Assembly (NCBI GenBank): GCA_951813015.1
Contig: CATOTG010000007.1
Coordinates: 186,001-250,000 of the forward strand
Direction of reading: 5' to 3'
DNA from: an uncultured Thermoanaerobaculia bacterium
GTDB taxonomy: Bacteria; Acidobacteriota; Thermoanaerobaculia; Multivoradales; Multivoraceae
DNA: 64,000 nucleotides
Position 1 is the stretch's first letter, and the number at the start of each line of letters is the position of its first letter. Under the pieces are notes generated by a model. It did not search any database, was not told where the DNA came from, and worked only from the letters and a program-made list of their open reading frames with translations. The position numbers and the translations under genes are program-made. Below are positions 34,551-41,969 of the stretch, piece after piece.

Positions 34551-35054
34551 GTGAAGAGGCGCCGGCTTGCCATCGCGGTCGTCGCCCTCGCCGTCATCGG
34601 CCCGCTCGGCGGCCTCCTCTGGTTCGAGTCCCGGCTCGAAGCAAGACTGTCTCAACGACCCGAAGTCGGCATGGTGTTCCCCTCCCTGCCGGGCCTCGCC
34701 GACGGCGAGTTCCTGCCGGCCTCTCCCAACCGGCTTCGGGTCGTTACCTTCGCCAGGGCGGGCTGCGGCAACTGCGACCGCACGATCGCCACCTTCCGGC
34801 GCCTCGCGGCGGACAGCGAACTCGACTTCGATCTGATCGCCGTCGTTGCGGGTTCCACCGCCGAAGAACGCATCGAGGGCATTCGGCACACGATCGCCGA
34901 CCCCGATGCCTCCATCTCCCGGCGCTTCGGCGTGGTCCACGTCCCGCTCGTCTTTCTGGTCGACGGCAACTCCCGGATCCAGGCCGTCGCCACCGGCGAA
35001 CGAGCCGAGACCGCCTGGCGCTCCTTTCTGGGAATCGAAGGCGATGCCCGTTGA
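34551..35054 (+). CDS. Membrane-anchored thioredoxin-like (redoxin) protein
   Basis: N-terminal TM (LAIAVVALAVIGPLGGLLWF); FARAGCGNCDRTIATFRRL CxxC; VVHVPLVFLVDGNSRI. Confidence 0.8.
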   Translation: MKRRRLAIAVVALAVIGPLGGLLWFESRLEARLSQRPEVGMVFPSLPGLADGEFLPASPNRLRVVTFARAGCGNCDRTIATFRRLAADSELDFDLIAVVAGSTAEERIEGIRHTIADPDASISRRFGVVHVPLVFLVDGNSRIQAVATGERAETAWRSFLGIEGDAR

Positions 35055-35161
35055 TCCCACGAAAACTGCCCGGCGTCGCCGCCTGGCCGCTGCCGGGCTG
35101 CTGCTCGCCACCGGCCTGGTGACCGTCGCCGTCCGCGCCGTCGGCCCCACGCTCGACCGTC

Positions 35162-35650
35162 TTGCCTGGGCGGCCTCCGTCGCCCCCCTCGACTTCAGGA
35201 TTCGGCGAGGTTGTTCGACAACAGAAGCGCTCCGACTGCGGGCCCGCGGCGCTCAAGATGATCCTCGATCACCACGGCATCGCCGGGGCCACGCTCACCG
35301 AACTGGAGGCCGACACCGGCACCGGACCGGACGGCACCAGCATGCTCGCCCTGAAGAGAGCCGCCGAAGACCGGGGGCTCGTCAGCCAGGGCCTCCGGCT
35401 GCCGGTGAAACGGCTGGGCCACATTCCCATGCCCGCGATCGCCCATGTCCACGGCGATCACTTCGTCGTCATTCGCAGCGCGGGGGACGAACTCATCATC
35501 GACGACCCATCGCTGGGTCGCCTCCGCATGAGTTCCAGGACCTTCGAGCGCTCCTGGGACGGCGTCCTCCTCACCTTCACCGGCGGCCCAGCAACGATCT
35601 CGCGGACGGTACGGATGCCGTCCGTTTCCCAAGAAACCACCAACCCCTGA
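35162..35650 (+). CDS. C39 (double-glycine) peptidase domain protein, N-terminal TM segment in another frame (from 35044)
   Basis: VVRQQKRSDCGPAALKMILDHHGI; MPAIAHVHGDHFVVI; IIDDPSLGRLRMS (Cys/His/Asp of C39). Upstream frame MPVDPTKTARRRRLAAAGLLLATGLVTVAVRAVG supplies a TM anchor. Confidence 0.8.
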   Translation: MPGRPPSPPSTSGFGEVVRQQKRSDCGPAALKMILDHHGIAGATLTELEADTGTGPDGTSMLALKRAAEDRGLVSQGLRLPVKRLGHIPMPAIAHVHGDHFVVIRSAGDELIIDDPSLGRLRMSSRTFERSWDGVLLTFTGGPATISRTVRMPSVSQETTNP

Positions 35651-35784
35651 AAAGGAGAACAGCCATCAATCATCCATCCAAACCCGCCACCGCTTCGCGG
35701 GCCGGCATCAACGCCTCGAGACACTCACACACCATGAATCACACCTCCTCCTCCCCTCAGACCCCACCGAAAGGACACCCCTCC

Positions 35785-36093
35785 ATGAAGATGCGCATCG
35801 CCCTCTTGTCCGGACTGGTCACCCTCGTCGCCAGCGCCGCTGCCGCCATTCCCACGACAGACAAAGAGCCGGCAACGGAACCGGCGCGAGGCCTCTTCGT
35901 CTGGGACGAAGGCCTGACCGCGGAACTTGCCACATTTGCCGTCCAGCCGGAGTCGACGGAGCTTGCCGTCTACAGTCCCTGCGGCTGCACTCCACGCCCC
36001 GGCCTCCCGTTCCCGTTTCCCTTCCCGCTGCCGTGGCCTCCGACCGGCCCGATCTTCGACCCGTTCCCCATTCCCGGCCCCTGTCCCTTCTAG
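35785..36093 (+). CDS. Small secreted Pro/Phe-rich Cys-containing peptide precursor
   Basis: 102 aa: MKMRIALLSGLVTLVASAAAAIPTT...SPCGCTPRPGLPFPFPFPLPWPPTGPIFDPFPIPGPCPF; SD-like AAAGGA upstream. Confidence 0.65.
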   Translation: MKMRIALLSGLVTLVASAAAAIPTTDKEPATEPARGLFVWDEGLTAELATFAVQPESTELAVYSPCGCTPRPGLPFPFPFPLPWPPTGPIFDPFPIPGPCPF

Positions 36094-36184
36094 CTTCCGT
36101 GCCCGTTCCAGGTACGTTCAGCTCACGCGCAACTACACAAAAACGCACTAGCCACTCAAACACCTTCAAAGAAAGGAACAAATC

Positions 36185-36454
36185 ATGAAACTGACTTCAC
36201 TCCTGGTCCTTCTCGGGCTAGTCCTTGGAACCCCGGCTCTGGCCGCGCACCCGGACTTGTCCTCCGTGCATCAGCTGGACGAGTCGAGCCTTGCAGAGTA
36301 CACGGGCGCCGGCTGGTTGGAAGCGGCCTGTGCCTTCGGCACCGGCGCCGGGATTCCTCTCGCAGTAGGTGGTCTGGTCGTTTCCAGCCTGGCGCTCGGC
36401 ATTCCGGCCCTCGTACTGGCGATCGGCGGTGGCGTTTGCATGGTCGCGCTGTAG
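36185..36454 (+). CDS. Small bacteriocin-like precursor peptide (CxFGT type)
   Basis: 89 aa: signal MKLTSLLVLLGLVLGTPALAA, leader-like LDESSLAEYTGAG, core WLEAACAFGTGAGIPLAVGGLVVSSLALGIPALVLAIGGGVCMVAL; SD AAAGGA. Confidence 0.7.
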   Translation: MKLTSLLVLLGLVLGTPALAAHPDLSSVHQLDESSLAEYTGAGWLEAACAFGTGAGIPLAVGGLVVSSLALGIPALVLAIGGGVCMVAL

Positions 36455-36538
36455 CTCAAGCAGACACATTTCGCCAGACCGACTCGACCTATCAATCCAC
36501 AAGCAATCTCGCTCAACTCACAGAAAGGGAATCAGGCA

Positions 36539-36853
36539 ATGATCCTGTCTCGAATAGCGTTCGTTTCAACCATCTCCATCCTGTCCGTCTCACTCGGACT
36601 GACACCGCTGGAACCACCCTCGGTCTCCGCGGACAGCCAGGCGCCGCAGGGCGTCGCGATCGCTGACGCCGAAGCGGCGCAGACCCTCGGAGGCGAATTC
36701 ACGATGACCGAGTGCGTCTTCGGAACGCTCGGCGTCAGCGTCGGAGCCCTCCATGGAGGCGCTTTCCTGCTCATACTTGGAGGTCCGGTCGCCTGGGGCG
36801 CCGGGCTCATCGGCGCTGGTGTCGTTATGGGAGGGCTGATGGCCGCCTGTTGA
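36539..36853 (+). CDS. Small bacteriocin-like precursor peptide (CxFGT type)
   Basis: 104 aa: signal region, IADAEAAQTLGG leader end, core EFTMTECVFGTLGVSVGALHGGAFLLILGGPVAWGAGLIGAGVVMGGLMAAC. Confidence 0.7.
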   Translation: MILSRIAFVSTISILSVSLGLTPLEPPSVSADSQAPQGVAIADAEAAQTLGGEFTMTECVFGTLGVSVGALHGGAFLLILGGPVAWGAGLIGAGVVMGGLMAAC

Positions 36854-37020
36854 ATGCGGTAGCGGCGCCGGAAGGACCAGATGGGCTCTCTGGCCCGTGG
36901 ACCTCCCGTTTCAGAATGCCCAAGCTCTACACGATCAACGACCATCCCTGAAAACGAACAGCAGGCCACTCGCGCATGACCTCTCTTGGCCTTTGCCCGC
37001 ATCAGGGAAAAAGAACGTTT

Positions 37021-37053
37021 GACGGACGCTACAGGCGCGGGGTAGCGTCCGTC
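37021..37053 (+). terminator. Strong hairpin downstream of peptide genes
   Basis: GACGGACGCTAC aggcgcggg GTAGCGTCCGTC perfect 12-bp stem followed by TCTTTG and preceded by GGGAAAAAGAACGTTT. Confidence 0.75.
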
Positions 37054-37271
37054 TCTTTGTCGTCAGCGGCGCAACGGGCCTGCGAGCCGGCCTTTCTGCA
37101 AAACTTGGCCGCCGCCCTTGGGTCCAGGATCGCTCCTGCCCAAGGTCGGTCGACGCCTGGTCTCGTTTCCCCTCTGGAGGACCTCGCTCAGAGTGGCCAG
37201 TTCGGCCCGCCACCAGTCCAGGCGCCGGCGCACCTTTTCCGAGAGCCGGCCAGAGCCACCTTGAGGACTCG

Positions 37272-38885
37272 ATGGCCACGTTGACGAAGCCCGGAAGCCG
37301 GGCGGACCTGCTGCTGACGCTTGCACGGCTGGCACTGCCGGACGCCGTGCGGCGAGCCAACCAGCCGGTGGGAGTGACGATCCTGGTCGCCGTCCTGTTT
37401 CTGGTGTTCGCAACTGTCGGGACTCTGGGGATCCTGCCGCTGATCTTCGCGATCGAGGGCGACGCCCTGCGGAGAAATCTCCTGAGCCTGATCGCCTGCT
37501 CCGTAACCGGGCTCGCCCTTCTCGCCCAGGCGGCGCTTCGGGCGCCGATCACCTGGCTGCTCGACCTGGAGGACCTGCTGCGGTTGCCGGTGGGCTTTCG
37601 GGACCTGTACGGGCTCCGCTTCGCCCTGAGCACGATCGGCTACTGGATTCCGGTTCTCGGTCCCGCCGGCCTCTACCTGACGGTCATGAGGTCGGACGGC
37701 ATGGCGGGGATGCCGATCACTTTCCTCGGCATCCTGAGTCTGGTTTGGATTGTCGGCCGGCTGGCAGCGATCCTGTCTCTTCTGACCGACCGCTGGGTCG
37801 AAGGTGTGCTCGGAACCTTGGCCGTGTTCGTCATCGCGGTTGTCGTCCACGGCACGATCCTCGTCACCGCAATGGCCTTCGGCGGTGTACTCGATTCAGA
37901 AGGGATCATTCGAGCAATCGAGGAATCCGCTGTTCTTGGCGGCCTCGGCTACACGCCGCCCGGGCTCGTTGCCGGCATCGTCCACGACCCGGGCCCTTCG
38001 CCGTTGAATCTGGCGAAACTCGGCAGTCTGTTCGCCATTCTCGGCGTCTTGGCCGTGCTGGAAGACCGGCTCCTTCTCGGCAGCTACCTGGAGCGTCCCG
38101 GCGGCGACCGCCGAGGCGCTTCCAGAGTGCTTCCTCTGACTCGGATACTCCGAAGATCCCGCCGTCTCACTCCCATGGCGACCCTTGCGGCGCTCGAAAT
38201 CGAATGTCTGTTACGTTTCAAACCGGCAAGGCGGGTTCTGGCAATCACGGCCGCCTTCGCCTTCGTGTGGGTACCCGCCCTGGCCGGTCTCGCCGTCGGT
38301 GTGGCGGGGGCTATTGGTCTGGTGCTTCACGGTTTCCGAGTCGAGAAGCAGCCGTCGACCTGCTACGTATGGAGGGAATCGCTCGGCCTGCCCCTCACCG
38401 CCACCCGGATCTTCCGCGCGACCGGCCGCGCCCCCGGCGTGGTGACTGCCTTCGTTCTTGCGCTCATTCTGGGTCTGACGCCACTCGACTGGTTCGGCTG
38501 GCGGTTCTTCCTGGTTGCGACCTGCCTGATGCTCGCAAGCGCCCTCCTGACCAGCGCCGCGCACGGCCTGATCCAGGTCTACTGGCCCCAACGCAGCGCC
38601 GGACTGAACAACGAACCGAATGGCGCAAAGTTCGTGATGTCTTTCCTGATAACGCCGATGGCTTTGGTCCCCGCGGTCCTCTCTCCTTTTCTGTACATTC
38701 TCTACGCAAGGCAGGGTCTCAGCGCTCTTGCCGCCGGGTTCATCGCGGCGGCGGTGTTGCTCCTTGCGGCCGCGGCCGCATACACCTCTCGCCGATGGCA
38801 AGCCCGCGTGCTCAAAGCGCGTGGGCGCGAACTCCTGCTTGACGACCCCGACGAAGATTCTCCGAAGGAATCGAGCCTTTCCTGA
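37272..38885 (+). CDS. Putative ABC exporter permease (multi-TM)
   Basis: 537 aa multi-TM; followed by an ABC ATPase; homologous by eye to 47879..49492. Confidence 0.75.
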   Translation: MATLTKPGSRADLLLTLARLALPDAVRRANQPVGVTILVAVLFLVFATVGTLGILPLIFAIEGDALRRNLLSLIACSVTGLALLAQAALRAPITWLLDLEDLLRLPVGFRDLYGLRFALSTIGYWIPVLGPAGLYLTVMRSDGMAGMPITFLGILSLVWIVGRLAAILSLLTDRWVEGVLGTLAVFVIAVVVHGTILVTAMAFGGVLDSEGIIRAIEESAVLGGLGYTPPGLVAGIVHDPGPSPLNLAKLGSLFAILGVLAVLEDRLLLGSYLERPGGDRRGASRVLPLTRILRRSRRLTPMATLAALEIECLLRFKPARRVLAITAAFAFVWVPALAGLAVGVAGAIGLVLHGFRVEKQPSTCYVWRESLGLPLTATRIFRATGRAPGVVTAFVLALILGLTPLDWFGWRFFLVATCLMLASALLTSAAHGLIQVYWPQRSAGLNNEPNGAKFVMSFLITPMALVPAVLSPFLYILYARQGLSALAAGFIAAAVLLLAAAAAYTSRRWQARVLKARGRELLLDDPDEDSPKESSLS

Positions 38886-38916
38886 CCACCCGCAACCACA
38901 AGGAACCCGCAAACTG

Positions 38917-39702
38917 ATGGAAGCAATCAAGGCAGAAAACCTGACCCGCTCCTACAACGGCAACGTCGTCGTGGACGGTGTGGATCTCGACGTCCGGGAG
39001 GGCCAGATCCTGGGGTTCGTCGGTCCCAACGGGGCCGGCAAGACGACGACCTGGTCCATGCTGACCGGCGTGCTCAAGCCCACGAGCGGCACGGTCCGCC
39101 TGCTGGGCAAGCCAGTCGACGTGAACGACACGGAGCTCAAGCGGCAACTCGGCATCGTGCCCGATCACAGCGAGATGTTCGAGAGCCTGACCGGGGAAGA
39201 GCTGCTGCTGTCGTACGCCCGCATCTATGGCCTGGGCCGCGAAGACGCCGGCCAGCGAACCGACGAGGCGCTCGCCGTCTTCGACCTCGAAGACGCCGCC
39301 AGGCGACCGATCACGACCTACTCCCACGGCATGAGAAAGAAGATCCGGTTGGCGGCAGCGACCCTGCACGGGCCGCGGATTCTGTTTCTCGACGAGCCGT
39401 TCGAGGGCATGGACGCGATCAGCGCGCGCACCGTGATGTCCATTCTGCAGCAGATGGCCCGGGACGGCGCGGCCGTGTTCCTGACGTCCCACATGCTCGA
39501 CTACGTCGAACGCGTGTCGAGCCACATCGCCGTCATCCGGGACGGCAAGGTCCTCCTGTCCTGTTCGCGCGAAGAGTTCCGCGAACTGCCCGACTCCGAG
39601 GGAGAAGACGGCGCCGGTCGGCTCGAGAACCTCATCCTCAGCATCTCACGACGCGAGAGGTTCTCCCGCCTCTCGTGGATCGGCAACAGGAGCAAGACAT
39701 GA
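38917..39702 (+). CDS. ABC transporter ATP-binding protein
   Basis: GPNGAGKTTTWSMLTG; YSHGMRKKIRLAAATLHGPRILFLDEPFEGMD. Confidence 0.95.
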   Translation: MEAIKAENLTRSYNGNVVVDGVDLDVREGQILGFVGPNGAGKTTTWSMLTGVLKPTSGTVRLLGKPVDVNDTELKRQLGIVPDHSEMFESLTGEELLLSYARIYGLGREDAGQRTDEALAVFDLEDAARRPITTYSHGMRKKIRLAAATLHGPRILFLDEPFEGMDAISARTVMSILQQMARDGAAVFLTSHMLDYVERVSSHIAVIRDGKVLLSCSREEFRELPDSEGEDGAGRLENLILSISRRERFSRLSWIGNRSKT

Positions 39703-39799
39703 CCGAGCCTTCCCAGGACACTCACCCAGCGAGCCGCGGACCACGGCGGTTCAGGCGCGCAAGGAGCAAGACATGACCGAGCCTTACCAGGACACTCAC
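39688..39799. repeat. Repeat-spacer-repeat duplication at gene junction (locus A)
   Basis: 38-bp AGGAGCAAGACATGACCGAGCCTTmCCAGGACACTCAC at 39688-39725 and 39762-39799, 36-bp spacer, 74-bp period. Confidence 0.95.
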
Positions 39800-40543
39800 T
39801 CCCACCAGCACGGCAAGTCGAACGGAAACCAACCGAGCGACCGGACCGCCTGGCTCAGCGCCCTGATCGGGATCGTCGCCTCTCCACGCAGAAGCTTCGA
39901 CATCATCCGGCGGCGCAGCCCCTGGCTCGGAGCTGCGGTCTTCCTCGCGGCCGGCACGATGGCCCTGGCCAGCCTCCTGGCGCCGTTCGGTCTCCAGGCG
40001 CTCCGCACGCAGTTGACCCGGCAGATGCCCCAGGAACAGGTCGAGGCGATGATGAACCAGTTCGAGCAAACGGCCGCAGCGACCCGCTGGCTGTCGATGG
40101 CCACCGGTCCCACCCTCGTGGTGATCGGGATCCTGGTCCAAGCCGTCTTTGTCTACCTCCTGGCGGTGGCGTTCCAGGGCCAGGCCCGCTTCGCCCAGTC
40201 CCTCTCCCTGATGCTCCACCTGGGCGTGATCGCCCATCTCAAGAACTGGGCCAACCTGCTCTTCCTCCACCTCCGGGGCCTGGACGCGGTCCGCTCGCAG
40301 CAGGACCTTCAGACGCCAATGGGCCTTGAAGTCCTCGCCGGCGACAGCCCCGCACTCAACGCGGTCTACGCGAGCGTCAACCCCTTCACGATCTGGCTGC
40401 TGGTGCTGCTCGGCCTGGGCGCAGCGGCGGTGTACCGGCTCCCGCGCCGGAAGGGTCTCATGCTCGCCGGCCTCTACTGGGCGGCTTCGACGGCCCTCTC
40501 AGCCGGGGTAGCCGGGGTAGCGGATGGACTCCTGCCCACCTGA
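39773..40543 (+). CDS. YIP1 family membrane protein
   Basis: ALIGIVASPRRSFDIIRRRSPWLGAAVFLAAG and multi-TM architecture typical of Yip1-domain proteins. Confidence 0.75.
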   Translation: MTEPYQDTHSHQHGKSNGNQPSDRTAWLSALIGIVASPRRSFDIIRRRSPWLGAAVFLAAGTMALASLLAPFGLQALRTQLTRQMPQEQVEAMMNQFEQTAAATRWLSMATGPTLVVIGILVQAVFVYLLAVAFQGQARFAQSLSLMLHLGVIAHLKNWANLLFLHLRGLDAVRSQQDLQTPMGLEVLAGDSPALNAVYASVNPFTIWLLVLLGLGAAAVYRLPRRKGLMLAGLYWAASTALSAGVAGVADGLLPT

Positions 40544-40871
40544 ACGGGCTGCTCCGCCGTCCCCTCTCGGCGGCCGGTTGTGCCAGCATCCGCCCGGCGG
40601 AGCGCGGCGGGTGTCGCGGCTATCGCGGCGACCTCCTTCTCCGCGCCTCGTTGACGCACGTCGCCGCGACAAGGTAACTTCGCGCTATTGGTCGTCAACT
40701 GCGGAGTGGGCCTGCGAGACGGGTCCCCTGCCGAATGGAACAGCCGGCACAAGGCGCCGGGGCGCTCCCGACGCTCGATGAACAGGCAGGCGTACCTGCC
40801 CACTGTGCATGGCGACCAACAGGGCCCGGCGCCATTTGTCCCAACCGCCACCAACGGCCAGGAGAGAAGTG

Positions 40872-41969
40872 ATGCAGCGCAGAACTCTCGGAGCACTCGC
40901 GGCGGCAGCCGCCGCCATCTTCCTCGCGACGCCGGTCGCGACAGCCGCCGAGGACGACGCGACTCCGCGCACGGCCTCGGGGCGGCCGGATCTGACCGGC
41001 CACTACGACATCGCCACCCTGACGCCGCTCAACCGGCCCGAGGAGTTCGGCGACAATCTGTTCCTGACTCGGGAACAGGCGGCAGAGATCATCGAACGGG
41101 AGCGCCAGCGGGTAGCCGCCAGGGCCGCGGTCCGCCGGATCGACGAACCGCCCCCGCCAGGCGGCGCGCCACCCATCGGTCTGGGCGACGAGTTCCGGGA
41201 GACGAGCGGCGCGGGCAACGTCGGCGGCTACAACAACTTCTGGACCGATCGCGGCAGCGACGTGTTCTCCATCGACGGCAAGTTCAGGACCTCGATCATC
41301 ACCGACCCGCCGAACGGCCGGATGCCTGCGCTCACCGCGGAGACGATGCAGCGGCTGTCGGAACGCCGCGGCCGCCGTCGCGGCAACGACGGCACGGCCT
41401 GGTGGCTGGAGGTCGAAGGCCCGGGACCGTACGACGGGCCGGAGTCCCTGGGCGTGCCCGAGCGCTGCCTGATCGGCTTCGGCTCGACCGGCGGGCCGCC
41501 GATGCTGCCCGTCCTCTACAACAACGCCAAGCGGATCGTGCAGACCGGGAATCACCTGATGATCCTGACCGAGATGGTCCACGACGCGCGGGTCGTGCGC
41601 ATCGGCGGCGAGCACATCCCCGCAGGCGAGCGCCGCTGGCTCGGCGATTCGATCGGCTGGTGGGAAGGAGACACCCTCGTCGTCGAGACGACGAACTTCA
41701 TCGACCAGCCGGCGCTCTTTCTCGCTTCACGGAACCTCAAGGTAACCGAGCGGTTCACCCGCAAGGGCAAGGATCTCCTGTACGGCTTCACGATCGAAGA
41801 TCCCACCGTCTGGACCACGCCGTGGAGCGGCGAGTACCTGTGGCCCGGCACTCCGGCAAGGGTCTACGAGTACGCGTGCCACGAGGGGAACTACGCGATG
41901 GGCAACATCCTCCGGGGAGCGCGGCTGCTCGAGGACGAGACGCGGAGCGCGGCGAGCGGCGGCCAGTAG
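40872..41969 (+). CDS. Secreted protein of unknown function (paralog of 9135..10202)
   Basis: Signal peptide; SGRPDLTGHYDIATLTPLNRPEE; FRTSIITDPPNGRMPALT; YACHEGNYAMGNILRGAR. Confidence 0.8.
   Translation: MQRRTLGALAAAAAAIFLATPVATAAEDDATPRTASGRPDLTGHYDIATLTPLNRPEEFGDNLFLTREQAAEIIERERQRVAARAAVRRIDEPPPPGGAPPIGLGDEFRETSGAGNVGGYNNFWTDRGSDVFSIDGKFRTSIITDPPNGRMPALTAETMQRLSERRGRRRGNDGTAWWLEVEGPGPYDGPESLGVPERCLIGFGSTGGPPMLPVLYNNAKRIVQTGNHLMILTEMVHDARVVRIGGEHIPAGERRWLGDSIGWWEGDTLVVETTNFIDQPALFLASRNLKVTERFTRKGKDLLYGFTIEDPTVWTTPWSGEYLWPGTPARVYEYACHEGNYAMGNILRGARLLEDETRSAASGGQ

Follow-up and report, generated by a model that had tools for sequence, protein, structure and literature searches.

Class II two-peptide bacteriocins (PF10439, TIGR01847, TIGR03949) are small, glycine-rich, paired peptides whose precursors carry a double-glycine leader with hydrophobic residues at positions -12, -7 and -4. 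Their C39 peptidase is fused to an ATP-binding cassette (ABC) exporter, forming a peptidase-containing ABC transporter (PCAT), and acts in the cytoplasm on precursors devoid of a Sec signal. Here we describe a cluster of eight genes that shares the leader and the paired glycine-rich peptides of this class but differs in possessing a stand-alone C39 peptidase, a linked redoxin and precursors with Sec-like N-termini. The cluster occupies positions 34551-40543 of a 64,000-nucleotide stretch of contig CATOTG010000007.1 (hereafter the window), part of a 4.3 Mb Acidobacteriota metagenome-assembled genome (MAG) belonging to the Thermoanaerobaculia and related to 'Ca. Multivorans'. Relatives of the same genus are named as Thermoanaerobaculia, Holophagales, Acidobacteria or 'Candidatus Multivorans thiocomprendens' MAGs, and the genus is presumably sponge-associated, as is generally assumed of such MAGs.

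Export by Sec and a disulfide are features of the SDP toxin of Bacillus. The producer is shielded from this hydrophobic peptide by YknWXYZ, an efflux system that includes YknW (PMC4887032), and the present cluster likewise pairs candidate peptides with an ABC gene set and a YknW-like (Yip1) protein. The SDP/YknWXYZ system differs in having neither a C39 peptidase nor a double-glycine leader, and in its other accessory proteins (PMC4887032).

Precedents for C39 peptidases outside the cytoplasm come from two further systems. FapD of Pseudomonas is a Sec-exported periplasmic C39 protein required for amyloid secretion (PMC5557850; NCBIfam NF058616), and our peptidase resembles it in standing alone, in its putative periplasmic location and in its apparent association with Sec-dependent export. 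The Fap proteins differ in lacking canonical C39 sites and in using the outer-membrane channel FapF, and the accessible part of that report describes no redoxin or ABC/Yip proteins (PMC5557850). The nap island of Neisseria (NapP, NapABC, NapF) combines several small GG-leader peptides with a C39 peptidase, NapP, proposed to cut in the periplasm, and an immunity-like partner, as appears to be the case here, together with a FapF-like channel (PMC11798529). Unlike our candidates, the Naps are cationic; within the available sections of that account no Sec signal is described, passage across the inner membrane is uncertain (NapH is suggested), no redoxin or ABC/Yip protein is named, and the Naps are said to drive autolysis and not to kill competitors (PMC11798529). 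An initial annotation of the window, made from sequence alone, had proposed a topology different from that of classical class II bacteriocin maturation. The absence of a PCAT-type fusion is borne out, but a periplasmic C39 peptidase is not in itself new, as FapD and the proposal for NapP indicate (PMC5557850, PMC11798529). In the open literature we found no account of precursors bearing a Sec signal as well as a double-glycine leader and linked to a C39 peptidase and a redoxin; most subscription papers and preprints lay outside this search.

Gene content and conservation of the cluster

All eight genes lie on the plus strand, in the order redoxin, C39 peptidase, three short open reading frames (ORFs), permease, ATPase and Yip1, exactly as initially listed. 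Conservation was assessed by a genus-level C39 search covering 20 other genomes, from which 18 loci were fetched; 16 of these are complete, the contig continuing past the cassette of short ORFs. A C39 homologue of 73-96% identity is present in 20/20 of the other genomes, and seven possess a second copy of 56-60% identity. The redoxin gene lies immediately 5' of the C39 gene at 18/18 genus loci, and at all 16 complete loci the redoxin-C39 pair and a variable cassette are followed by the permease, ATPase and Yip/YknW genes. The initial annotation had held that its proposal would fall if linkage of the short ORFs to the C39 peptidase and redoxin were not conserved in relatives; this linkage is conserved across the genus and the proposal survives. 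Two further loci (L020 and L021) hold paralogous sets of the same plan.

The systematic homologue search extended across the Acidobacteriota. A redoxin gene immediately 5' of a C39 gene, together with short precursor ORFs, Yip or ATPase genes, or both, was found in other families, at L103 (same taxonomic order), L104 (same class) and L088-L090 and L093 (same phylum). At L091 a C39 peptidase, a precursor, an ATPase and a Yip protein make up part of the plan, and L093 likewise follows it only in part. A defence library scan returned generic ATPase matches only.

A stand-alone C39 peptidase beside a membrane redoxin

The catalytic domain of the peptidase (35162-35650, plus strand) matches Pfam PF03412 (Peptidase_C39) with an E-value of 8.5e-31. 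A profile built from twelve stand-alone relatives matches the peptidase structures of PCAT1 and ComA (E 1.4e-24), and in an alignment of 12 C39 sequences the oxyanion glutamine and the catalytic cysteine, histidine and aspartate (Gln59, Cys65, His139 and Asp154 in L002 numbering) are invariant. The protein therefore possesses both the domain and the active-site residues of Peptidase C39. The stand-alone open frames span approximately 160-300 residues and are not fused to the ABC permease and ATPase of a PCAT; no PCAT occurs in the cluster, and the window gene is the sole C39 match in the source genome. In a tree of C39 domains the stand-alone peptidases of this system cluster apart from transporter-fused C39 domains with moderate support (85/94). 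Nor is the protein a FapD equivalog, the window C39 scoring 49.5 bits against the NF058616 cut-off of 330.

In relatives the C39 gene is a single ORF whose ATG overlaps the end of the redoxin gene and whose product begins with a basic and then a hydrophobic segment. This N-terminal segment predicts a membrane-anchored protein with the protease domain outside the cytoplasm. In the window the corresponding anchor (35044-35188, plus strand) starts at an ATG in a frame other than that of the catalytic domain, whereas anchor and domain form one ORF in L002-L019. At 35183-35188 the window has a run of six C where L002 has five, which shifts the anchor into a different frame. The initial description of a short C39 peptidase without an ABC fusion is thus accurate as to domain and architecture but must be amended, in that the window gene is interrupted. 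The extra C may reflect a genuine mutation, phase variation or an error of sequencing or assembly. A programmed frameshift was considered and set aside, since the genes of relatives are intact and an indel or assembly error is the simpler explanation.

The redoxin (34551-35054, plus strand, GTG start) is a TlpA/ResA-like protein with an N-terminal membrane helix and a CGNC motif. Its Pfam Redoxin match (E 4.4e-5) falls just under the curated cut-off; its profile matches ResA, DsbE and thioredoxin structures, the best being 2m72 (E 2.5e-12).

Precursor peptides carry two predicted N-terminal targeting parts

The three short ORFs, here p1 to p3, were initially all taken as C39 precursors. This assignment suits p2 and p3 only. 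The product of p2 (36185-36454, plus strand) comprises a putative Sec signal, the leader LDESSLAEYTGA, recovered by leader search, and a 47-residue core with two cysteines; that of p3 (36539-36853, plus strand) comprises a putative Sec signal, the leader IADAEAAQTLGG and a 52-residue core, also with two cysteines. Both have homologs in the same four genomes (L004, L015, L018 and L019), with ratios of nonsynonymous to synonymous substitution (dN/dS) of 0.36 and 0.40, respectively. In contrast, p1 (35785-36093, plus strand), the first gene after C39 and defined by family alignment, encodes a signal-bearing and apparently Sec-exported protein with a proline-rich, cysteine-containing tail and no GG or GA site. 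It leads the cassette, followed by at least two more ORFs, in every genus locus that extends that far.

Across the genus the short-ORF classes recur in all loci reaching the cassette, mostly behind strong ribosome-binding sites. Each cassette holds two to four precursors consisting of a putative Sec signal, a linker, a double-glycine-type leader and a glycine/alanine-rich core of 38-59 residues, usually with one cysteine close to its start and another close to its end. Sec signals were judged from hydropathy and visible motifs only; on this basis the N-terminus is Sec-like in 22/23 precursor types examined, and some show A-x-A sites. Precursor dN/dS values are 0.36-0.44, compared with 0.19 for the C39 peptidase, and the short ORFs are therefore real, translated proteins under purifying selection.

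C39 proteases require hydrophobic leader residues at -12, -7 and -4 (PMC10885120), and most precursor types conform to this class II rule (combined shuffle p 1.3e-7), by a score devised after the sequences had been seen and with single-sequence p values often modest (>0.05) in such glycine-rich cores. Independently of this score, in one precursor (L020:5469-5783) the leader region past the signal is matched by PF10439 (Bacteriocin_IIc, E 0.0017), TIGR01847 and TIGR03949, all below their cut-offs, the best curated bacteriocin score being 18.7 bits against 27.1 for PF10439. Within the window, p2 and p3 gave no bacteriocin match in Pfam or NCBIfam; none of the short ORFs matches a Pfam family, and the sole NCBIfam hit is a sub-threshold PatX match for p2. 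Nor does the cluster encode the PCAT or type I machinery by which class II bacteriocins are exported and cleaved. On the other hand, p2 and p3 co-occur in 5/5 genomes and two further families are similarly inherited as adjacent pairs, an arrangement that recalls two-peptide bacteriocins. The p3 core is predicted to be helical (predicted local distance difference test score, pLDDT, about 83-88).

Two observations bear on precursor evolution. At L003:9204-9668 the front of a GG-type precursor is apparently fused to a p1-type proline-rich cysteine tail, a sign of recombination within cassettes. Homologs of p2 at L004:9070-9402 and L015:9069-9401 bear a p1-type signal peptide in place of their own, which we read as leader swapping among precursor families.

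The ABC/Yip1 gene set

Downstream of the precursors, 37272-38885 (plus strand) encodes a polytopic membrane protein with many hydrophobic helices and no Pfam match, a probable ABC permease in that it adjoins the ATPase gene in 16/16 complete loci. It is present in one or two copies in relatives, and its AlphaFold2 model is mostly helical but of low confidence (pLDDT 52). The ATPase (38917-39702, plus strand) is of the DrrA/NodI/antibiotic-efflux type (ABC_tran E 6.7e-30; NCBIfam drrA E 3.2e-64, below cut-off). The last gene (39773-40543, plus strand) encodes a Yip1/YknW-like membrane protein that surpasses the cut-off for the Pfam Yip1 domain (E 9e-12) but not for the YknW equivalog (NCBIfam YknW_fam E 9.5e-19; 67.7 bits against 110). 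The initial annotation left the role of this set between immunity and export. By analogy with YknW, and because Sec would already provide export across the inner membrane, immunity is the likelier role.

Further downstream, a minus-strand gene at L002:12637-12948 is weakly similar to the protein encoded at 40809-41969 of the window and has counterparts at L006-L011 and L014.

The peptide cassette is replaced between close relatives

Comparison of the window with L002 revealed flanking DNA of approximately 94% identity interrupted by an unalignable segment, 35859-37010, which begins just past the p1 signal sequence and in whose place L002 holds three different GG precursors. Identity also drops, to 64-74%, in the 3' part of the permease gene, and at L013 unusual precursors lie beside an extra, distant permease copy. 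These patterns suggest that peptides and permease may form a specificity unit. The peptide genes appear to be exchanged as cassettes among close relatives, as is often seen for toxin-type peptides.

A model for peptide maturation and its alternatives

The features from which a Sec/C39/redoxin route was initially deduced, namely a Sec-like signal with an internal double-glycine leader, a C39 peptidase with a predicted membrane anchor, a linked thiol oxidoreductase and two-cysteine cores, are all found. We infer that the cluster probably serves production of, and self-protection against, small bacteriocin-like peptides that are usually paired. Precursors with two consecutive targeting parts would be exported across the inner membrane by means of the Sec signal. 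Following signal removal, the anchored C39 peptidase, its catalytic domain facing the periplasm, would cut behind GG, GA or GT of the class II leader. The CGNC redoxin may then make or isomerise a disulfide between the cysteine near the new N-terminus and that near the C-terminus, while the permease, ATPase and Yip1 protein would confer immunity by expelling or excluding the hydrophobic mature peptides.

Several observations weigh against this model. The cluster encodes no outer-membrane exporter, and no redoxin was detected at L091, L092 or L094. Most cores are neutral or weakly acidic, unlike cationic antimicrobial peptides, and the modelled p3 core is a single long helix that would not itself join its two cysteines. 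Once genome relatedness is accounted for, permease and peptides do not co-vary significantly across the genus (partial r 0.13, p 0.22). Finally, cassettes in seven genomes also contain precursors of 57-58 residues with a classic double-glycine leader and two cysteines but no Sec signal (L004:8833-9006, with equivalents at L005, L009, L011, L012, L014 and L015; the upstream in-frame extension is not signal-like).

The charge of the cores would sit comfortably with the alternative that the same route matures structural or signalling peptides, such as surface fibres or agents of symbiosis or self-signalling, with the ABC/Yip proteins moving or sensing them. The functional amyloid served by FapD (PMC5557850) and the autolysis promoted by Naps without killing of competitors (PMC11798529) are parallels for such a role, and universal presence in the genus would fit a core function. 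Cassette replacement, paired peptides with class II leaders and a linked YknW-like/ABC set are nonetheless better suited to a toxin and its immunity, the cluster revealed no FapF-like channel and the cores lack obvious amyloid-type repeats; we regard this alternative as possible but distinctly the less probable. The signal-less precursors could instead be taken to mean that a second route exists, in which the permease, ATPase and Yip1 protein export the peptides across the inner membrane or envelope and the hydrophobic N-termini are uncleaved segments. This is unlikely, given that nearly all remaining precursors have signal-like N-termini, some with A-x-A sites, and a linker ahead of the leader, and that there is no C39 domain in the ABC set, the peptidase being separately anchored with periplasmic-type topology. 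GG-like motifs are common in glycine/alanine-rich sequence, as the modest single-sequence p values reflect, and the short ORFs might be ordinary, unrelated membrane or secreted proteins, the C39 peptidase and redoxin acting on something else. Their conserved position, the p2-p3 pairing, the consistent core length and cysteine placement across families, the bacteriocin-leader match at L020 and the occurrence of stand-alone C39 genes beside such ORFs in other families make this very improbable.

In its widest form, the bacteriocin model would describe a previously undescribed, phylum-wide group of Gram-negative, two-peptide, disulfide-closed bacteriocins with Sec signal and double-glycine leader, a dedicated anchored periplasmic C39 peptidase and redoxin, cassette-swapped peptides and ABC/YknW-type immunity, a proposition to which we give even chances. 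If correct, bacteriocin-like peptides can undergo C39 processing without being tied to an ABC exporter, and a two-step leader, Sec and then double-glycine, would hold a membrane-active peptide inert until past the inner membrane. Searches for a PCAT with a short GG precursor would overlook such clusters, and the model would add a candidate family of peptides for competition or symbiosis in a lineage related to marine sponge symbionts.

Other C39 peptidases

Two other groups of candidates were rejected as members of this system. In a plasmid collection, the two best unannotated candidates examined, from Ensifer and Caballeronia, proved to be fused PCATs. The Terriglobia-type stand-alone C39 peptidases (L099, L100, L102 and L105) form a separate clade in the C39 tree. 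At L100 (5392-5799 as oriented) and L105 (5045-5476) the Terriglobia-type C39 gene lies beside one for a protein with a Sec signal, an LDKVTAG-like leader and an asparagine-rich tail. This pair may be a further periplasmic C39 system, one whose substrate is amyloid-like.
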